Shown here piece after piece: positions 55,471-62,798 of a stretch of DNA of 64,000 nt (positions within the stretch are counted from its first letter, which is position 1; the number at the start of each line of letters is the position of its first letter). The translations under genes were made by a program, and so were the position numbers. Where the stretch lies: positions 62,001-126,000 of the forward strand of contig JALSIB010000043.1 of the NCBI GenBank assembly GCA_026981855.1, given 5' to 3'. The DNA is from Methylothermaceae bacterium (GTDB taxonomy: Bacteria; Pseudomonadota; Gammaproteobacteria; Methylococcales; Methylothermaceae). Below the pieces are notes generated by a model, which saw only the letters and a list, made by a program, of their open reading frames with translations, was not told the origin of the DNA and made no database searches.

Positions 55471-56636
55471 CTTTCCTCCCGCGCCGCGGCCACGGCTTTT
55501 CCGGCAGCCTCCAGCAAATCGTTGGCGGCGATGATCGCCAGGCCGGAATTCGCCAGCAAGGCCCGTCCTTCCCCGGCATTGGTGCCCTCGAGCCTAACCA
55601 CCACCGGAACCCCCACATGCACTTCCTTGACCGCCTCGATGATTCCCCGGGCGATCAGATCGCAACGGACGATGCCACCGAAAATATTCACCAGGATCGC
55701 CTTGACCTTGGGGTCGGACAGAATGATTTTGAATGCTTCAGTGACACGCTCGGTCGAAGCCCCCCCTCCCACATCGAGGAAATTGGCGGGTTCTCCGCCG
55801 CATTGTTTGACCAGATCCAGGGTCGCCATCGCCAGACCGGCGCCATTGACCATACAGCCGATGTCGCCGTCGAGGGTGACATAACTCAGGTCGTGTTCCC
55901 TGGCGCGGCGTTCTTTCTCGTCCTCCTGGGAAGGATCACGCAAAGCTTCCACGTCGGGGTGGGCATAGAGGGCATTGTCATCGAAATTGAGCTTCGCATC
56001 CAGCGCCACCAGTTCCCCCCCGGCGACCACGGCCAATGGGTTGATCTCTATCTGGCTGGCGTCTTTTTCCACCAGCAGGCGGTACAGACCCTCGAGAATT
56101 CTGACGAACATGCCGATCTGCCCGCCTTCCAGGCCCAGCCCGAAGCCTATCTCGCGCCCCTGGTAAGCGAAGATCCCGGTTGCAGGGTGAACCTGGAAAC
56201 GCAGGATCGCTTCCGGTTGTTCACTGGCCAGCCGCTCGATTTCCACGCCTCCGGAGGCCGAAGCCACCGCCGCGACCCGTTCGCTTCCCCGGTCGATCAG
56301 CAGGCTGAGATACAACTCCCGTTCGATATCGCTGGCGGCTTCGACCAGCACCGCTTCCACCGGAAGCCCTTCCGGCCCTGTCTGTGCGGTCACCAGCCGC
56401 CTTCCCAACATTTCCCCGGCCGCCTCCGCGACCGACTGCGGCGAATCCGCCAACACCACTCCACCCGCCTTGCCTCTCGCCCCGGCGTGGATCTGGGCCT
56501 TGACCAGCCAGCGCCCGCCGCCCAGCCCGCTTGCCGCCGACGCGGCTTCTTCGGGTGTGCGGGCGACTTTCCCCGGCGGTACCGGCACAGCGTAACGGGA
56601 AAGCAACGCCTTGGCCTGATATTCATGGATGTTCAT
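55467..56636 (-). CDS. sucC: Succinate-CoA ligase beta subunit
   Basis: The 389-residue ATP-grasp protein has the start [52 protein letters not shown] and [14 protein letters not shown]. These match SucC closely. It is divergent from pilS with almost no gap; sucCD next to pilSR is also seen, to my recollection, in Xanthomonadaceae. Confidence 0.94.
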
Positions 56637-56661
56637 CAGATACGGCTATAATTTCGTGGAG

Positions 56662-58323
56662 ATGAACACTATTCTAAGTCAACTGTCCGGTCGAGGCGAA
56701 TTCACGCCCATGGAGGCGACCTTCCAACCTTGCCCGCTGTCCGGATTCCGGATCCAGGCGGATCAAGGGTGGCGGTTGTTGCTGACCTTCAGCGGCTATC
56801 AATTGCTGCTGGGGGGACTGCTCACATTCCTTTTTCTGACCTCCTGGGGCCCTTCGCTCCTTGGCCGCTTCTCCAGCCAGGGATTCCTCGTCACCAGCCT
56901 TTGCTATACCGCCGGCGCCGCGCTCTCTTTCCCTTTCGTCTTCTGGCGAAGGCCCGATTACCGGTGGCAGGCCGGACTGCACATACTCCTGGATCTCATC
57001 GCCCTCCCCCTGATCATCTACGCCTGCGGCGGATTGGAAAGCGGTTTTGGAATCCTGTTGGCGGTTTCGGTCACCGCCGCCGGGCTACTCATAGGCGGCC
57101 AGTGCGCCATCGGCTTCGCCGCCCTGGCGAGCCTCGCCATCCTGGGGATGGAAAGTTACGCCGATTTGCGCCATGCTTTTCCCACCACCCATTATTCCTA
57201 TGCGGGAATGCTGGGCATGAGTTATTTCGCCATCGCCCTGTTGGCCATCAGCCTGGCCAGAATGGCCGAACAAAGCGAAGCGCTGGCCAGGCAACGGGGC
57301 AAGGATCTCGCCTATCAACGGCAGCTGAACGAGTTCATCATCCAGAACCTGCAATCGGGTATCATCGTCCTGGACGCGCAGCGGCGGATCTTGTTGACCA
57401 ATGATTCCGCCAGGCGTCTGCTGGCCTTGCCCGGCCGGCCCCACCGGCTGGAGGAGCTGCCCGACTCCCTGACCCAGTCCTTGCTTCAGTGGCCGCAACA
57501 GGCCCAGGAGCTGTCCACGACCGTCGCCAACGGCGATTCCCCTCCGCTTCATGTCCGCTTCAGCCGGCTGCAGATTCAGGACACCCCTCTGACAATGATC
57601 TATCTGGAGGACGATACCCTGCATCAAAAACGGGTTCAGGAAGGCAAACTCGCCTCCCTCGGCCGCCTCACCGCCGGCATCGCCCACGAAATCCGAAACC
57701 CCCTGGGCGCCATCAGCCATGCCGCCCAGCTGCTGGCCGAAAACGATCACCTGCCCCCCCAGGATCAAAGGCTGGTCCATATCATCGGCAATCAGGCCCG
57801 AAGGCTCGACGACACCATCGGAAACGTGCTTCAGCTGTCGAGGAGAAACGCCGCCAAGCGGGAAAAAGTCTGCCTCAACACCTGGCTGGAAACGTTTTGC
57901 CGGAACTTTCAGAACGAGACCCGGGGAAATCACGCCCCCCTCCAGCTGCAGACCTCCCCTTCGCCGATGAGAGCCTGGGCGGACCCGAGCCATCTCGAGC
58001 AAATCGTCTCGAACCTGTGTCACAACGCGCTCAAGTACGGAGGGGGGGGAGACACCCCCATACAGATCCGGCTTTCCAGGGATGAGGAAAAGCGCCCGCG
58101 GATCGAAGTGATCGATCACGGCCGCGGGATCCCTCCGCAACAGATTTCACAGGTCTTCGAGCCTTTCTTCACCACCTCGTCCAGCGGCACCGGCCTGGGA
58201 CTGTATATTTCCCGCGAGCTGGCGCAAATGAACCAGGCGCGGCTGGTCTATGACAACGGCCCTGCCGGCAGCCGTTTTTCCCTTGTCCTCGAAGACGCCG
58301 ATCAAGTCACGGTACAGCTATGA
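56662..58323 (+). CDS. pilS: Type IV pilus sensor histidine kinase PilS
   Basis: The roughly 553-residue product has six N-terminal membrane helices (about 35-215) and a PAS-like linker (NEFIIQNLQSGIIVLDAQ). The H-box is GIAHEIRNPLGAISHAAQL, and the ATPase domain has DHGRGIPPQQ and GTGLGLYIS. It controls PilR phosphorylation, in Pseudomonas by sensing pilin in the membrane. A TATAAT box at 56647-56652 lies close upstream. If that is the promoter, the in-frame ATG at 56710, preceded by GAGG, is the better start. pilR overlaps the 3' end by 4 bp. Confidence 0.92.
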   Translation: MNTILSQLSGRGEFTPMEATFQPCPLSGFRIQADQGWRLLLTFSGYQLLLGGLLTFLFLTSWGPSLLGRFSSQGFLVTSLCYTAGAALSFPFVFWRRPDYRWQAGLHILLDLIALPLIIYACGGLESGFGILLAVSVTAAGLLIGGQCAIGFAALASLAILGMESYADLRHAFPTTHYSYAGMLGMSYFAIALLAISLARMAEQSEALARQRGKDLAYQRQLNEFIIQNLQSGIIVLDAQRRILLTNDSARRLLALPGRPHRLEELPDSLTQSLLQWPQQAQELSTTVANGDSPPLHVRFSRLQIQDTPLTMIYLEDDTLHQKRVQEGKLASLGRLTAGIAHEIRNPLGAISHAAQLLAENDHLPPQDQRLVHIIGNQARRLDDTIGNVLQLSRRNAAKREKVCLNTWLETFCRNFQNETRGNHAPLQLQTSPSPMRAWADPSHLEQIVSNLCHNALKYGGGGDTPIQIRLSRDEEKRPRIEVIDHGRGIPPQQISQVFEPFFTTSSSGTGLGLYISRELAQMNQARLVYDNGPAGSRFSLVLEDADQVTVQL

Positions 58324-59690
58324 CCAAGCCTCTCGCCCTGATCGTCGATGACGAACCCGACATCCTCGAATTGCTGGAACTGACCCTGTCGCGCATGGAC
58401 ATCGACGTCCGCACCGCCGCCAGCGTCGCCGAAGCGGTTCAGTGGTTGAACCGCCAATCTTTCCATTTCTGCCTGACCGATATGCGCCTGCCGGACGGGA
58501 ACGGACTCGATCTGATCGCCCGCATCCAGGAACAGGCCCCGGGCCTGCCGGTTGCCGTCATCACCGCCCACGGCAATATGGACATTGCCGTCAAGGCCCT
58601 GAAACAAGGCGCCTTCGATTTCGTCTCCAAGCCGGTGGATCTGGGCATTCTGCGCCGCCTGGTGGACAGTGCCCTGCGGGTCACCCAGGAAAAAGGCGTC
58701 AAGGACCGGCGATCCCGCGACGTTCTGCTTGGCGAATCCGAATCCATGCGGGACATCCGCTCCAAGATCGTCAAGCTGGCCCGTACCCAGGCCCCGATCT
58801 TCATCAGCGGTGAATCGGGGACGGGCAAGGAACTGGTCGCCCGCCTGATCCACGCCAAGAGCCCCAGAGCGAACATGCCTTTCGTCGCCATCAACTGCGG
58901 CGCGATTCCCTCCGAACTGATGGAAAGCGAGTTTTTCGGTCACAAAAAGGGCAGTTTCTCCGGCGCCGTCGCCGACAAACGCGGCCTGTTTCAGGCCGCC
59001 GACGGTGGAACCCTGTTTCTGGACGAAGTGGCCGATCTGCCTTTGCCGCTGCAGGTGAAGCTGCTGCGGGCGATCCAGGAGAAAAAGGTCCGCCCGGTGG
59101 GGGCCGAGCGCGAAATCCCCATCGATGTGCGCATTCTCAGCGCCACCCACAAGAACCTCGGGAAAATGGTGGAGGAAGGCCGCTTCCGTCAGGATCTCTT
59201 CTACCGTATCAACGTCATCGAGCTCCCCGTCCCCCCTCTCAGGGAAAGGCGCGAGGACATCCCCCTGCTCACCAAGCGCATCCTGTCCCGGCTGGCCCGG
59301 GACAACGGACTGGAATCGCTCGAAATCTCTCCCCAGGCATTGGAGGAGCTTTGCCGTTACGCCTTTCCCGGCAATGTTCGGGAACTGGAAAACATCCTCG
59401 AAAGGGCCGCCGCTTTGTGCGACGATCAACACATCGAACTCGGCGACCTCAACCTTCCCAAAAGCCAGAGCGATGAGACGGCACACCGCCCCATCCCATT
59501 GAATCTTCCTTCTCCGGAGGGCGGATTTTCGCTGGAAGACTATCTGGGGGAAATCGAACGCCACACCATCCTCAATACCCTGGAACAGACCCGCTGGAAC
59601 CGTTCCAAGGCGGCCAGGCAATTGGGGATGACCTTGAGGCAACTGAAGTACCGGTTACAAAAATGGGGGCTTGACGGCGAGGCCCATTGA
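58320..59690 (+). CDS. pilR: Sigma-54 response regulator PilR
   Basis: The 456-residue product has a receiver domain (D54) and AAA+ domain (Walker A GESGTGKE at 164-171, Walker B LFLDEVADL). The Fis-type HTH is at the C-terminus (NRSKAARQLGMTLRQLKYRL). The sigma-54 loop reads GSFSGA (210-215) rather than GAFTGA. PilR activates pilA transcription from a sigma-54 promoter, and one lies 95 bp downstream of this gene. Its stop codon is inside an 18-bp palindrome. Confidence 0.95.
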   Translation: MTKPLALIVDDEPDILELLELTLSRMDIDVRTAASVAEAVQWLNRQSFHFCLTDMRLPDGNGLDLIARIQEQAPGLPVAVITAHGNMDIAVKALKQGAFDFVSKPVDLGILRRLVDSALRVTQEKGVKDRRSRDVLLGESESMRDIRSKIVKLARTQAPIFISGESGTGKELVARLIHAKSPRANMPFVAINCGAIPSELMESEFFGHKKGSFSGAVADKRGLFQAADGGTLFLDEVADLPLPLQVKLLRAIQEKKVRPVGAEREIPIDVRILSATHKNLGKMVEEGRFRQDLFYRINVIELPVPPLRERREDIPLLTKRILSRLARDNGLESLEISPQALEELCRYAFPGNVRELENILERAAALCDDQHIELGDLNLPKSQSDETAHRPIPLNLPSPEGGFSLEDYLGEIERHTILNTLEQTRWNRSKAARQLGMTLRQLKYRLQKWGLDGEAH

Positions 59691-59847: not shown

Positions 59848-60261
59848 ATGAGGAAACACGCACAACAAGGCTTCACCCTTATCGAATTGATGATCGTGGT
59901 CGCGATCATCGGGATTCTGGCGGCGATCGCGATTCCGGCGTATCAGGATTACACCGCCAGGGCGCAGGCGGCTGAAGCCACCACCCTCCTCGGCGGCTTG
60001 AAAAGCTCGATCGCGGAATATTACAACACCGAAGGCGCGGCTCCTACCATGGGCGCACTCGGAAACGCGGTCACCACAGGGAAATATATTTCCACGATTG
60101 CCCAAAGCGGCTTCTCCTATACAGCGACTTTCAAAAACAGCGGCGTGAGCTCGAAGCTGAAGAGCAAAACCGTTTCCATGACCTTCAACAGTTCCACCGG
60201 GGCATTCTCCTTCTCGTGCACCGGTATCGACAGCGCCATTCGACCGAAAATCTGCCAATAA
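59848..60261 (+). CDS. pilA: Type IV major pilin PilA
   Basis: The 137-residue prepilin has a short basic leader MRKHAQQG cleaved before phenylalanine by PilD. The conserved helix [20 protein letters not shown] (with Glu5) and YQDYTARAQ follow. Two C-terminal cysteines (FSCTGID and RPKICQ) close the D-region loop. It is the main fibre subunit, with a good GGAGA ribosome site. A membrane GT-C-like gene begins 13 bp after its stop. Confidence 0.95.
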
Positions 60262-60274
60262 ACTCATAAATCGT

Positions 60275-62167
60275 ATGGAATTGTCCGCCATCAAGCGCCG
60301 CCTCCCGGGCGGCGCTTTCCTTTGGACAGCTTTTGCCGCTCTGATTCCACCCCTGGCGCTTTATCTTCCGGGGCTAGGCGGCGGCTTTTACCTCGACGAT
60401 ATTCCAAATCTCGGCCCTCTATCCCAACCGGACCTATCATGGCAGCAATACATACTCAACGGCTTCTCCGGCCCGCTGGGCCGACCGCTTTCCTACCTGA
60501 GTTTCTACCTGCAGCACGCCAGCTATCCGGCACATCCGGCCCATTTCAAGGCGGTCAATCTGGCCATTCACCTTCTCAATACCGCTTTGGTATATTGGCT
60601 AACTTCGAATCTATGTAAAGCAAGAGGGATCGCCGTCACTTGGAAAACCGCTCTCTCCTGTACAATCCTGTGGGGTATTCTGCCGGTTCATATCAGCACG
60701 GTTTTGTATGTCGTGCAGCGGATGACCCTTCTATCCGCTTTTTTCGTCCTGCTTTCCTGCGCCGCATATGTCCATATCCGCCTCAAGCGCATTCCCTGGG
60801 GCAAAATGGATTATATTCTCGCAACCGGATGGGTAGGAGTCGGGTATTTAGGCGTCTTCGCCAAAGAAAACGCCATTCTGACAGGGCTGGCCTTGGCGAG
60901 CCTGGAAGCATTCTTTCTGTCAACACTACCTTGGCGGCCCGCCAGATTATGGCGGTGGATATGCTTTTACTTCCCTTTCCTGATGCTTGTCATACATCTG
61001 ACGGTGCTCCGTGACATCACTGCAGGCTATGCCTCGAGAGATTTCACACTATCTGAACGTCTGCTTACCCAAAGCCGGGTCATATTCGACTACCTCAAAA
61101 TCATCTTGGCGCCCGACCTCAACGATTTGACGCTGTATCATGACAACTTCCCCGTCTCAAGATCGGTCGGTCTTCAAGAACTGTGGTCTCTGACAGGTCT
61201 GGCCACATGCCTCACGCTGATCATCAAGGGACGCCACAGATGGTGGTTTCCCCTTTCCTTCGCATTGACTTGGTTTTTTTCCCTGCACCTTCTGGAATCC
61301 ACCATCATTCCACTTGAAATCTACTTTGAACACAGAAATTATCTGCCATCGGTCGGACTGATTGTGGGACTGTTCTTTCTGGCCAAAGAAGCCATACGAC
61401 GCGCCCAGAAACGGGTTCGCCCCTCTATCCCCCATACAGCCTTAGGTATCATGATGGCATGGATGGCCACCATAACCGCCGTGGAAAGCAAAACCTGGGG
61501 TAATCCTCTGCAATTCGTCAGCGCGGCATGGTACAAAAACCCTGACTCGCTGCGCACCATGCAAGAGCTCTCATCTTTTTATCTCGCCCATAACAAGATA
61601 GGAGTCGCCTATCAACTACAATCCCGATGGAAGCAGGCACATCCCGAAAAATACACGCCGGGCATTGACCTTCGTATTTTGATGCTTTCCTGCCTGGATC
61701 CAAAAATACCCTTTCAATGGGACGAGAACATGCGGCATGCCTTCCTGACCGGCAAACTCGATATGTCCGTTGACGTACTCCAAGAAATCTTGGATCGGAA
61801 AATAGCAGGTCAATGCGAACATTTGAGGTGGCAAGACTACCAAGACATCCTCGACAGCTTTGCCAATAACCCCAATTACCGGAAGAACGGCCGCGTTTTT
61901 CTGTTTCTGAAAAAATTCAAAACCATCTCATCCTACGTAACCGGGGATCTGGAACAGGCCCTGACCACTGTCATCTCAGACATCAATCTGGAAACCGTGG
62001 ACTTCGATTACCTGTTACTGGCGGCCAGTATCGCTTATGAAGCGAATGCAAAGGCCGAATTCAGGAAAGTGGCCACAATCATTCGGGCGCGTTATCCCTA
62101 TGAATGGATAAAATTGGGAAAACACCAAAGGGATCTCGTGCAAAAAATCCACTCCGCTCGACTCTGA
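60275..62167 (+). CDS. TMTC-like polytopic membrane protein, candidate pilin glycosyltransferase
   Basis: The 630-residue product has about ten to twelve membrane helices up to residue 400 and a soluble helical tail of about 220 residues with TPR-like pairs. Features typical of GT-C enzymes are the early FYLDDIPNL (D41, D42) in the first outer loop, GRPLSYLSFYLQ, YVVQRMTLLSAFF and FEHRNYLPSVGL. These recur in TMTC/Wzy-like proteins. Position directly behind pilA suggests it glycosylates pilin, analogous to TfpO/TfpW, but the sequence is not those families. Codon use looks more AT-rich than its neighbours, a hint of transfer. Function is inferred. Confidence 0.65.
   Translation: MELSAIKRRLPGGAFLWTAFAALIPPLALYLPGLGGGFYLDDIPNLGPLSQPDLSWQQYILNGFSGPLGRPLSYLSFYLQHASYPAHPAHFKAVNLAIHLLNTALVYWLTSNLCKARGIAVTWKTALSCTILWGILPVHISTVLYVVQRMTLLSAFFVLLSCAAYVHIRLKRIPWGKMDYILATGWVGVGYLGVFAKENAILTGLALASLEAFFLSTLPWRPARLWRWICFYFPFLMLVIHLTVLRDITAGYASRDFTLSERLLTQSRVIFDYLKIILAPDLNDLTLYHDNFPVSRSVGLQELWSLTGLATCLTLIIKGRHRWWFPLSFALTWFFSLHLLESTIIPLEIYFEHRNYLPSVGLIVGLFFLAKEAIRRAQKRVRPSIPHTALGIMMAWMATITAVESKTWGNPLQFVSAAWYKNPDSLRTMQELSSFYLAHNKIGVAYQLQSRWKQAHPEKYTPGIDLRILMLSCLDPKIPFQWDENMRHAFLTGKLDMSVDVLQEILDRKIAGQCEHLRWQDYQDILDSFANNPNYRKNGRVFLFLKKFKTISSYVTGDLEQALTTVISDINLETVDFDYLLLAASIAYEANAKAEFRKVATIIRARYPYEWIKLGKHQRDLVQKIHSARL
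60293..60323 (+). terminator. Rho-independent terminator for pilA inside the next gene
   Basis: A perfect 10-bp GC-rich stem (AAGCGCCGCC 60293-60302 with GGCGGCGCTT 60308-60317, loop TCCCG) is followed by TCCTTT. It lies 32 bp past the pilA stop, within codons 7-17 of the following membrane-protein gene. It should end most pilA transcripts and let limited read-through into that gene. Confidence 0.7.
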
Positions 62168-62306: not shown

Positions 62307-62798
62307 ATGTCCGTCATCGAGCTTTACGAAAAACTCTCCTCCGCCCCGGACGACAAAACCCGGGCACGCATCATCGCCGAGGCGTTCGAAACCCTGGAAG
62401 AACGTTATCCACGCCTGTCCGATGTCGCGACCCGTCAGGATCTGAGCGAGGCAGAACTCCGCCTGATCAAGGAAATCGAGCAAGTTCGGGCCGAAATCAA
62501 GGAAACCGAACTCAACCTGCAGAAGGAGATCGAGCAGGTACGCGCCGAAATCAAGGAAACCGAACTCAACCTGCAGAAGGAGGTCGAGCAGGTACGCGCC
62601 GAAATCAAGGAAACCGAGCTCAACCTGCAGAAGGAAATCGAGCAGGTTCGGGCTGACCTCCGTCTGGAGATCAAGGCGGTGGAAGTCCGCCTCACGCAGG
62701 CGATCCATCGTCAGACGCTCTGGGTCATCGGGTCAGTTGGCGCCATCATCACCCTGATCCGCTTGATGGAATGGTTCCTGAAGCATCTACCGAACTAG
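62307..62798 (+). CDS. Repeat-containing coiled-coil protein with C-terminal membrane helix
   Basis: The 163-residue product has an N-terminal helical domain (about 1-54), three and a half copies of an 18-residue coiled-coil unit KEIEQVRAEIKETELNLQ (55-117), and a C-terminal membrane helix (about 138-158, LWVIGSVGAIITLIRLM). It resembles DUF1640/CCDC90-like bacterial proteins, whose role is unknown. The 18-residue period equals 7+11, compatible with a continuous coiled coil. Gain or loss of units would change only rod length. Confidence 0.75.
   Translation: MSVIELYEKLSSAPDDKTRARIIAEAFETLEERYPRLSDVATRQDLSEAELRLIKEIEQVRAEIKETELNLQKEIEQVRAEIKETELNLQKEVEQVRAEIKETELNLQKEIEQVRADLRLEIKAVEVRLTQAIHRQTLWVIGSVGAIITLIRLMEWFLKHLPN
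62469..62657 (+). repeat. 54-bp in-frame tandem repeats (3.5 copies)
   Basis: Units at 62469-62522, 62523-62576 and 62577-62630, with a half unit to 62657, are nearly identical at DNA level (few third-position changes, one Ile/Val swap). High DNA identity indicates recent slippage or recombination, so copy number probably varies between strains. Confidence 0.9.

Follow-up and report, generated by a model that had tools for sequence, protein, structure and literature searches.

Pilin glycosylation influences phage attack, adhesion, and pilus dynamics. In the literature that we examined, few enzymes dedicated to it are described, namely TfpO, TfpM, PglS, PglL, and TfpW. The genes of TfpO, TfpM, and PglS often lie near that of their pilin (PMC12645811, in part), and TfpO/PilO, TfpM, PglS, and PglL are WaaL-like O-oligosaccharyltransferases, i.e., proteins of the Wzy_C or O-antigen-ligase type. 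TfpW of Pseudomonas (Pa5196/PA7) is a GT-C pilin arabinosyltransferase that is encoded directly behind pilA in an exchangeable cassette and makes an Araf modification from a polyprenyl-phosphate donor (PMC11127046, in part). Pilin-accessory cassettes of Pseudomonas and of other genera commonly have a terminator behind the pilin gene (PMC11841053, in part). Two systems with other acceptors are also relevant. Three-component Gtr-type/GT136 systems, composed of a GT2 or PPPRS donor synthase, a flippase, and a GT-C enzyme, modify O antigen (PMC11127046, in part), and the animal O-mannosyltransferases TMTC1-4, which act on cadherins, join a membrane GT-C half to a C-terminal TPR part on the far side of the membrane (PMC7801869, in part). 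We found no description of a TMTC-like pilin glycosyltransferase in the open-access literature searched, outside which most subscription papers lie.

We analyzed a window of 64,000 nucleotides, positions 62001-126000 of contig C43 in genome G000, a 2.75-Mb draft (G, C, L, and g numbers designate genomes, contigs, loci or genes read, and genera of the comparison set). A preliminary description of this DNA had proposed that the ORF starting 13 bp behind pilA encodes a candidate new pilin glycosyltransferase. Its coordinates and the gap were as described: the ATG lies 13 bp past the pilA stop on the same strand, in the gene order pilS-pilR-pilA-GT-C (Table 1), and PilA carries a prepilin motif (19 residues, not shown). 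The gene was also said to be more AT-rich than its surroundings, and indeed it has 51.2% GC against 55.1% for pilA, 60.5% for pilS, 60.8% for pilR, and 57.8% for the whole window; in 33 of 36 homologous loci, the GT-C gene is likewise lower in GC than pilR and pilS. As a GC-rich hairpin overlaps the first codons, the exact start of the GT-C gene is uncertain, and the TTG at 60281 is the sole alternative in-frame ATG, GTG, or TTG ahead of the first membrane helix. The tail of the hairpin (60317-60324) is T-poor. A stricter terminator scan of the window did not have the hairpin at 60294-60316 among its listed terminators; therefore, an attenuator at this place is tentative.

Table 1. Features of the pilA-GT-C locus, in window coordinates, with the evidence for each.
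Feature	Position	Strand	Evidence
pilS, sensor kinase, cassette flank	56629..58323	+	Pfam 6TM_PilS E 1.7e-25, HATPase_c, HisKA
pilR, sigma-54 response regulator, cassette flank	58320..59690	+	Pfam Sigma54_activat E 6.2e-70, Response_reg
pilA, major type IV pilin, presumed acceptor	59848..60261	+	Pfam Pilin PF00114 E 1.4e-14, N_methyl 1.4e-10
TMTC-like GT-C glycosyltransferase, predicted pilin O-glycosyltransferase, 630 aa	60275..62167	+	ORF, alignment, model, gene linkage
GC-rich hairpin, attenuator-like, 9-bp stem, 5-nt loop, overlapping the first GT-C codons	60294..60316	+	Hairpin scan
D41-D42, DD motif, first periplasmic loop, position of TMTC motif M1	60395..60400	+	Invariant 61/61
R70 of GRP motif, first periplasmic loop	60482..60484	+	Invariant 61/61
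Q148-R149-M150, start of TM4, position of TMTC motif M3	60716..60724	+	Invariant 61/61
K197-E198-N199, TM5-TM6 loop, KE of TMTC motif M4	60863..60871	+	K, E invariant; N 57/61
E352-H353-R354-N355-Y356, loop before TM10, place of TMTC motif M7 ERxxY, presumed lipid-phosphate contact	61328..61342	+	EHRN invariant; Y 52/61
C-terminal helical-repeat (degenerate TPR) tail, predicted periplasmic	61550..62164	+	Model helices, repeat-type matches, TPR_19 in 43/61 homologues

Taken alone, the window protein has no Pfam family at E <= 1, and searches against Pfam, NCBIfam, and PDB sequences returned no useful family or match. An alignment of 61 full-length homologues, all from the order and counting the window protein itself, served to build an AlphaFold2 model (pLDDT 90.2, pTM 0.91). 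Reading of the model helices gives 11 membrane helices, bearing out the polytopic membrane protein suggested earlier. Foldseek alone found no match for the model at E <= 0.001. When its candidates were aligned with VIA-align, GT-C enzymes filled nearly all of the first 32 rows, with Z of 18.5 for STT3/OST, 17.6 for Pmt1-Pmt2, 17.1 for both AglB and ALG12, and 15.1 for both ArnT and PglB over residues ~5-435, while residues ~490-630 aligned to helical-repeat chains of TPR type with Z about 10. At the sequence level, the profile of the whole family matched TPR and similar repeat proteins only, among the PDB matches listed, and a profile of the GT-C half gave two chance matches only. The TPR-like tail that had been noticed is thus real, considering the repeat helices of the model and the TPR_19 matches of the homologues, and is degenerate in the window member, in which Pfam finds none.

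The other aligned homologues are 23-30% identical to the window protein, and 21 columns are invariant across all 61, among them D41, D42, R70, Q148, R149, M150, K197, E198, E352, H353, R354, and N355. The early DD motif pointed out before corresponds to D41-D42. The window protein deviates from the family at some conserved sites, such as L136 (H in 54/61) and L337 (G in 56/61). With a membrane fold of this kind (pLDDT 90, Z up to 18.5) and a DD in the first extracytoplasmic loop of all 61 proteins, two features of the GT-C(A) superfamily are present, and the gene product is, as modeled, a GT-C(A) glycosyltransferase with a TPR tail and not an enzyme of the WaaL/PglL type. A WaaL/PglL-type ligase was rejected on two grounds, as the window protein has no Wzy_C hit (PF04932) and hhalign of the family against one PglL-type and one Wzy_C-type protein gave a probability of 0.2 each. 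These two control genes, L200 and L214, do match Wzy_C and do not align to the family.

We also compared the protein with TMTC1-4, taking the positions of motifs M1, M2, M3, M4, and M7 from PMC7801869 (in part). Invariant residues of the family fall at these loop positions. In both groups, DD follows TM1, KE follows TM5, the M3 site precedes TM4, and R precedes TM10, and both continue into C-terminal TPRs on the far side of the membrane; the 11 membrane helices of the model also agree. On the contrary, the QRM-T of the family lacks the acidic residue of M3, EHRNY stands instead of the ERxxY of M7, and the expected acceptor is a pilin instead of cadherins. In addition, DUF1736 is absent from the window protein (no Pfam family at E <= 1) and from the 25 most frequent Pfam families of the 61 members. 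Close membership of the TMTC group was rejected because of the missing DUF1736 match and the differences in M3 and M7; of the earlier label TMTC-like, the layout, the motif positions, and the TPR tail hold.

We further compared the family with TfpW. A gene encoding 641 aa behind pilA in a Pseudomonas-like genus (L263) is TfpW of strain PA7 by gene order (PMC12369383, in part). It matches the family profile at E 2.9e-14, and hhalign aligns it to the family with a probability of 98.5 and E 1.7e-15 over 400 aligned columns at 17% identity, while BLASTP covers 118 residues only, at 24%. This remote homology extends over columns 22-446 with the WDD, RP, and SKE motifs, i.e., the whole GT-C domain. 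Therefore, the earlier view that the known pilin modifiers belong to other families is right for TfpO/PglL but not for TfpW. The 2 also share the position directly behind pilA in an exchangeable cassette and a polyprenyl-phosphate sugar donor, described for TfpW in the literature and predicted for the family. TfpW is not an orthologue, however: it is without the invariant QRM and EHRN of the family, no GT2 partner of the family's kind is found in the stretch read around it, and it uses D-Araf from a separate island (PMC12369383, in part). Given this homology, TfpW is the closest experimentally studied relative that we found, and because it is a remote homologue we class the family with it: as judged from sequence, its members would be a newly recognized and widespread form of TfpW-type pilin glycosyltransferase, TfpW-like in position and remote ancestry and TMTC-like in layout, with a predicted donor enzyme of their own. 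Two other species of the same Pseudomonas-like genus (L261, L262) carry pilA, a family gene, and a GT2 gene in a row, so that both kinds of cassette occur behind pilA within one genus.

Clustering of the neighbours revealed a single conserved gene outside the pilus genes, encoding a GT2 (PF00535). Its best NCBIfam matches, all below cut-off, include AglJ, a dolichyl-phosphate hexose transferase, and undecaprenyl-phosphate 4-deoxy-4-formamido-L-arabinose transferase, suggesting an enzyme like polyprenyl-phosphate-sugar synthases that is probably the maker of the sugar donor. Among the 146 family genes with at least 1 kb of downstream sequence, 64 have the GT2 within 2.6 kb downstream. Conservation of the GT2 is much stronger than that of the GT-C gene, 24 copies being 52-63% identical to the first row of their alignment. 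We searched for it in the same 151 genomes of the order that had been searched for the family and found it in 56; both genes occur in 52 genomes, the GT-C gene only in 1 (G003, with two family genes), the GT2 only in 4 (G010, G018, G064, G137), and neither in 94 (Fisher 1.6e-34, with kinship ignored). Genera that vary in presence mostly have or lack the two together. Both are absent from G007 and G009 in the genus of the window and from G082 in g16; in g17, G054 and G063 are without both and G039 has both, and in g8, G091 is without both and G016 and G124 have both. Moreover, the coupling holds at a distance, as in G059 with the genes at 0.35 and 2.05 Mb, and the genome of the window has one intact GT2 copy on another contig (C34:2072-2938), not adjacent to the GT-C gene. 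This coupling points indirectly to a polyprenyl-monophosphate sugar as the donor, likely made by the GT2. It would be the same pairing of a lipid-phosphate donor synthase with a GT-C enzyme as in Gtr-type/GT136 systems, with a pilin instead of O antigen as presumed acceptor.

The same data allow another donor. The protein could be an en-bloc oligosaccharyltransferase for pilin that takes a lipid-linked oligosaccharide, as AglB, PglB, and TfpO do, the GT2 starting a chain that GT4/GT2 enzymes extend before flipping. This would fit the top fold matches, STT3/OST and AglB, the closeness of the GT2 to AglJ of the Haloferax N-glycan pathway, the GT4-type glycosyltransferases found after the GT2 in several loci, and the LPG_synthase_TM flippase-like gene of one locus (L165). 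We nonetheless regard it as rather unlikely, considering that the GT2 is alone in most loci within the stretch read, that PMT, ArnT, and TMTC-type enzymes of the same fold take single-sugar donors, and that TfpW uses a polyprenyl-phosphate donor for Araf (PMC11127046, in part).

Family matches are present in 8 of the 10 genomes searched from the genus and in 53 of the 151 from the order. In the class, 112 of 369 genomes have one at E <= 1e-10, and in the phylum 24 of 398, where the cut-off was far stricter (E <= 1e-60). The GT-C gene is thus not the lone new candidate that it had been taken for; it belongs to a large family with many members that has not been described so far. The named-genome collection gave one near relative, a Methylothermaceae MAG whose homologue is cut off by the contig end; this nearest named relative agrees with the Methylococcales mentioned in the preliminary description. 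Carriage of the gene by mobile elements is not supported, since tblastn with the window protein against 72,556 records of plasmids and 50,697 of phages found no match.

The linkage to pilin genes was counted over family genes that scored at least 250 bits and encoded at least 400 aa, 160 in number once duplicates among 173 had been merged. Only loci fetched for the family gene itself were used; loci fetched for a pilin or a GT2 were dropped because of bias. From the class, about 70 stretches were read, the best-scoring of many matches. The upstream side was readable (at least 700 bp) for 146 genes, and in 102 of them a major pilin gene lies directly upstream on the same strand: 43/53 in the order, 44/71 in the class, 13/20 in the phylum, and 2/2 in one Pseudomonas-like genus. 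Eight of the 102 reach the pilin through a tandem copy of the family gene. Another 11 of the 146 have a prepilin-type gene within 3 kb, and 33 have neither by a strict pattern, which missed pilins seen by clustering at a few of them (L082, L105, L152, L163). Homologues are therefore not mostly located away from pilins, the finding that would have spoken against the preliminary description, and, given the 102/146 linkage, we rejected a chance neighbourhood with pilA. In the 99 direct cases, the family gene nominally starts a median of 67 bp after the pilA stop, and 85 of these loci have a terminator-like hairpin within 130 bp of that stop, an arrangement like that described for Pseudomonas pilin-accessory cassettes (PMC11841053, in part). 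Of 99 control stretches taken inside the gene, 17 had such a hairpin, and shuffled sequences gave 5.3 on average.

Comparison of relatives showed that pilin and GT-C gene also move together, as expected for the exchangeable cassette proposed earlier. Between the window and G005, PilS is 53% and PilR 75% identical, while PilA is 93% and the GT-C protein 97% identical (first 105 GT-C residues available). The opposite is seen with G008, in which PilS (76%) and PilR (84%) are close and PilA (38%) and the GT-C fragment (42%) are distant. Immediately ahead of pilA, the DNA is 63% identical to that of G005; from mid-pilA onward, the value is 96-97%. These opposed identities, together with the jump in DNA identity, indicate that pilA and the GT-C gene were replaced together. 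With pilR controlled for in a partial Mantel test, pilA and GT distances were positively but weakly correlated (25 loci, partial rho 0.22, p 0.002); a FastTree tree of 145 rows has many open branches and long-branch joins, and we draw no conclusion from it. We also read the slot behind pilA in 20 stretches from order genomes without the family. In G015 it is taken by a PglL-type gene, in G116 by a gene of the Wzy_C ligase type, and in G007 by one for a small three-helix protein; in others nothing obvious was seen. In G053, another genome without the family, it is occupied by a divergent TMTC-like TPR protein of 587 aa (L206, 2839-4599, minus strand; hhalign 99.4).

Linkage and exchange bear on whether the acceptor is a pilin at all. 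ArnT and Gtr-type GT-C enzymes with GT2 partners act on glycans or lipids, and the 33 of 146 family genes away from pilins, such as the homologue on contig C4 of the window genome, could suggest that this enzyme, too, serves O antigen, lipid A, or capsule and came to lie behind pilA by historical accident. We find this improbable. The linkage recurs in the order and, beyond it, in several families at the class and phylum levels, tandem copies occur behind pilA, members that lack an adjacent pilA lie next to prepilins of the PilV-like or GspG-like type, and relatives exchange the 2 genes as one piece.

Taken together, the predicted fold, the motifs shared by all homologues, the position behind pilA, the exchange of both genes at once, the co-occurring GT2, and the remote homology to TfpW make it quite probable that the gene encodes a membrane O-glycosyltransferase of GT-C(A) fold that is dedicated to pilin and acts on the neighbouring one, which is the function predicted at the outset. 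In the proposed mechanism, the GT2 would load a sugar onto polyprenyl monophosphate on the cytoplasmic side, and a flippase would turn the charged lipid across the membrane. The arginine of EHRNY in the GT-C protein would bind the lipid phosphate and the DD, QRM, and KE residues the sugar, which would be moved to Ser/Thr of the membrane-anchored pilin before pilus assembly. Recognition of the pilin may depend in part on the periplasmic TPR tail. Together, pilA, the attenuator hairpin, and the GT-C gene would be exchanged as a cassette in the manner of pilA-tfpW and pilA-tfpO in Pseudomonas, and the modification may protect pili, for instance from phages that bind them.

Several points count against our reading. 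Not every protein encoded behind pilA is a glycosyltransferase, TfpY being an example (PMC11841053, in part). Of the 146 family genes, 33 are away from pilins by the strict pattern; the GT2 is not adjacent in the window, and G003 has family genes but no GT2 match; the window protein differs from the family at some conserved sites; and the GT-C half has no sequence match of value in Pfam or PDB, nor did Foldseek alone find one for the model at E <= 0.001. Since non-catalytic pilin accessory proteins fill the same slot in Pseudomonas (PMC11841053, in part), the protein might be an assembly or stability helper like TfpY, TfpZ, or FimB whose GT-C fold is no longer catalytic. Yet a dead enzyme is very unlikely because DD, KE, QRM, and EHRN are kept in 61/61, and the strong genome-level co-occurrence with a donor-making GT2 also argues against it. 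Finally, that the protein is a true orthologue of the animal TMTC enzymes and transfers mannose is highly improbable despite the shared layout and a GT2 partner that resembles dolichol-phosphate-mannose synthase in kind, as DUF1736 and the M3 and M7 residues differ as described and no result indicates mannose.

A pilin-dedicated transferase of this kind would add an enzyme class for pilin in roughly a third of the sampled Gammaproteobacteria (112/369), with a predicted donor route that is directly testable. It would also set TfpW in a wider context, and the bacterial relatives offer the TMTC-type layout of membrane GT-C and TPR with a single small acceptor. For annotation, a testable function replaces "TPR repeat protein" or "hypothetical". 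Taking all parts jointly, we tentatively propose that pilA, the TMTC-like GT-C/TPR transferase, and the polyprenyl-phosphate-sugar synthase may constitute an unnamed pilin-dedicated O-glycosylation system. It could be among the commonest in Gammaproteobacteria, more widespread than TfpO or TfpW, fast-evolving, and exchanged in one piece with its pilin, with phages that bind pili as the probable selective force; TfpW might then be a specialized offshoot, and the animal TMTC enzymes might descend from, or share a root with, such bacterial enzymes.

We also noticed several other arrangements around the family. The genome of the window has a paralogue (C52:16401-17525; L002, L019) that is not behind pilA and lies beside three opposite-strand GspG-like prepilin genes; the arrangement is similar in G001, G002, and G006 and suggests a pseudopilin-linked branch. 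A third, more distant homologue in the same genome (C4:184-1521; L260) has clear TPRs, is followed by a GT4-like ORF, and has no pilin nearby. In one genus, family genes stand behind unusually long PilV-like minor pilins of 588-667 aa (L058, L066, L067, L078). Two or three tandem family genes followed by a GT2 gene were seen at L137 (G297:C47) and L149 (G195:C18), possibly reflecting successive or site-specific sugar additions. In G066 (C1:1687057-1688598), a single frame of 578 residues has four Pilin (PF00114) matches, as if pilin domains had been fused in tandem. In the window itself, positions 62307-62798 encode a small coiled-coil membrane protein with internal repeats of ~30 residues and weak CCDC90/DUF1664 matches only, paralogues of which are found repeatedly in the vicinity of family genes and of the GT2 gene (L022, L026, L254, L259).
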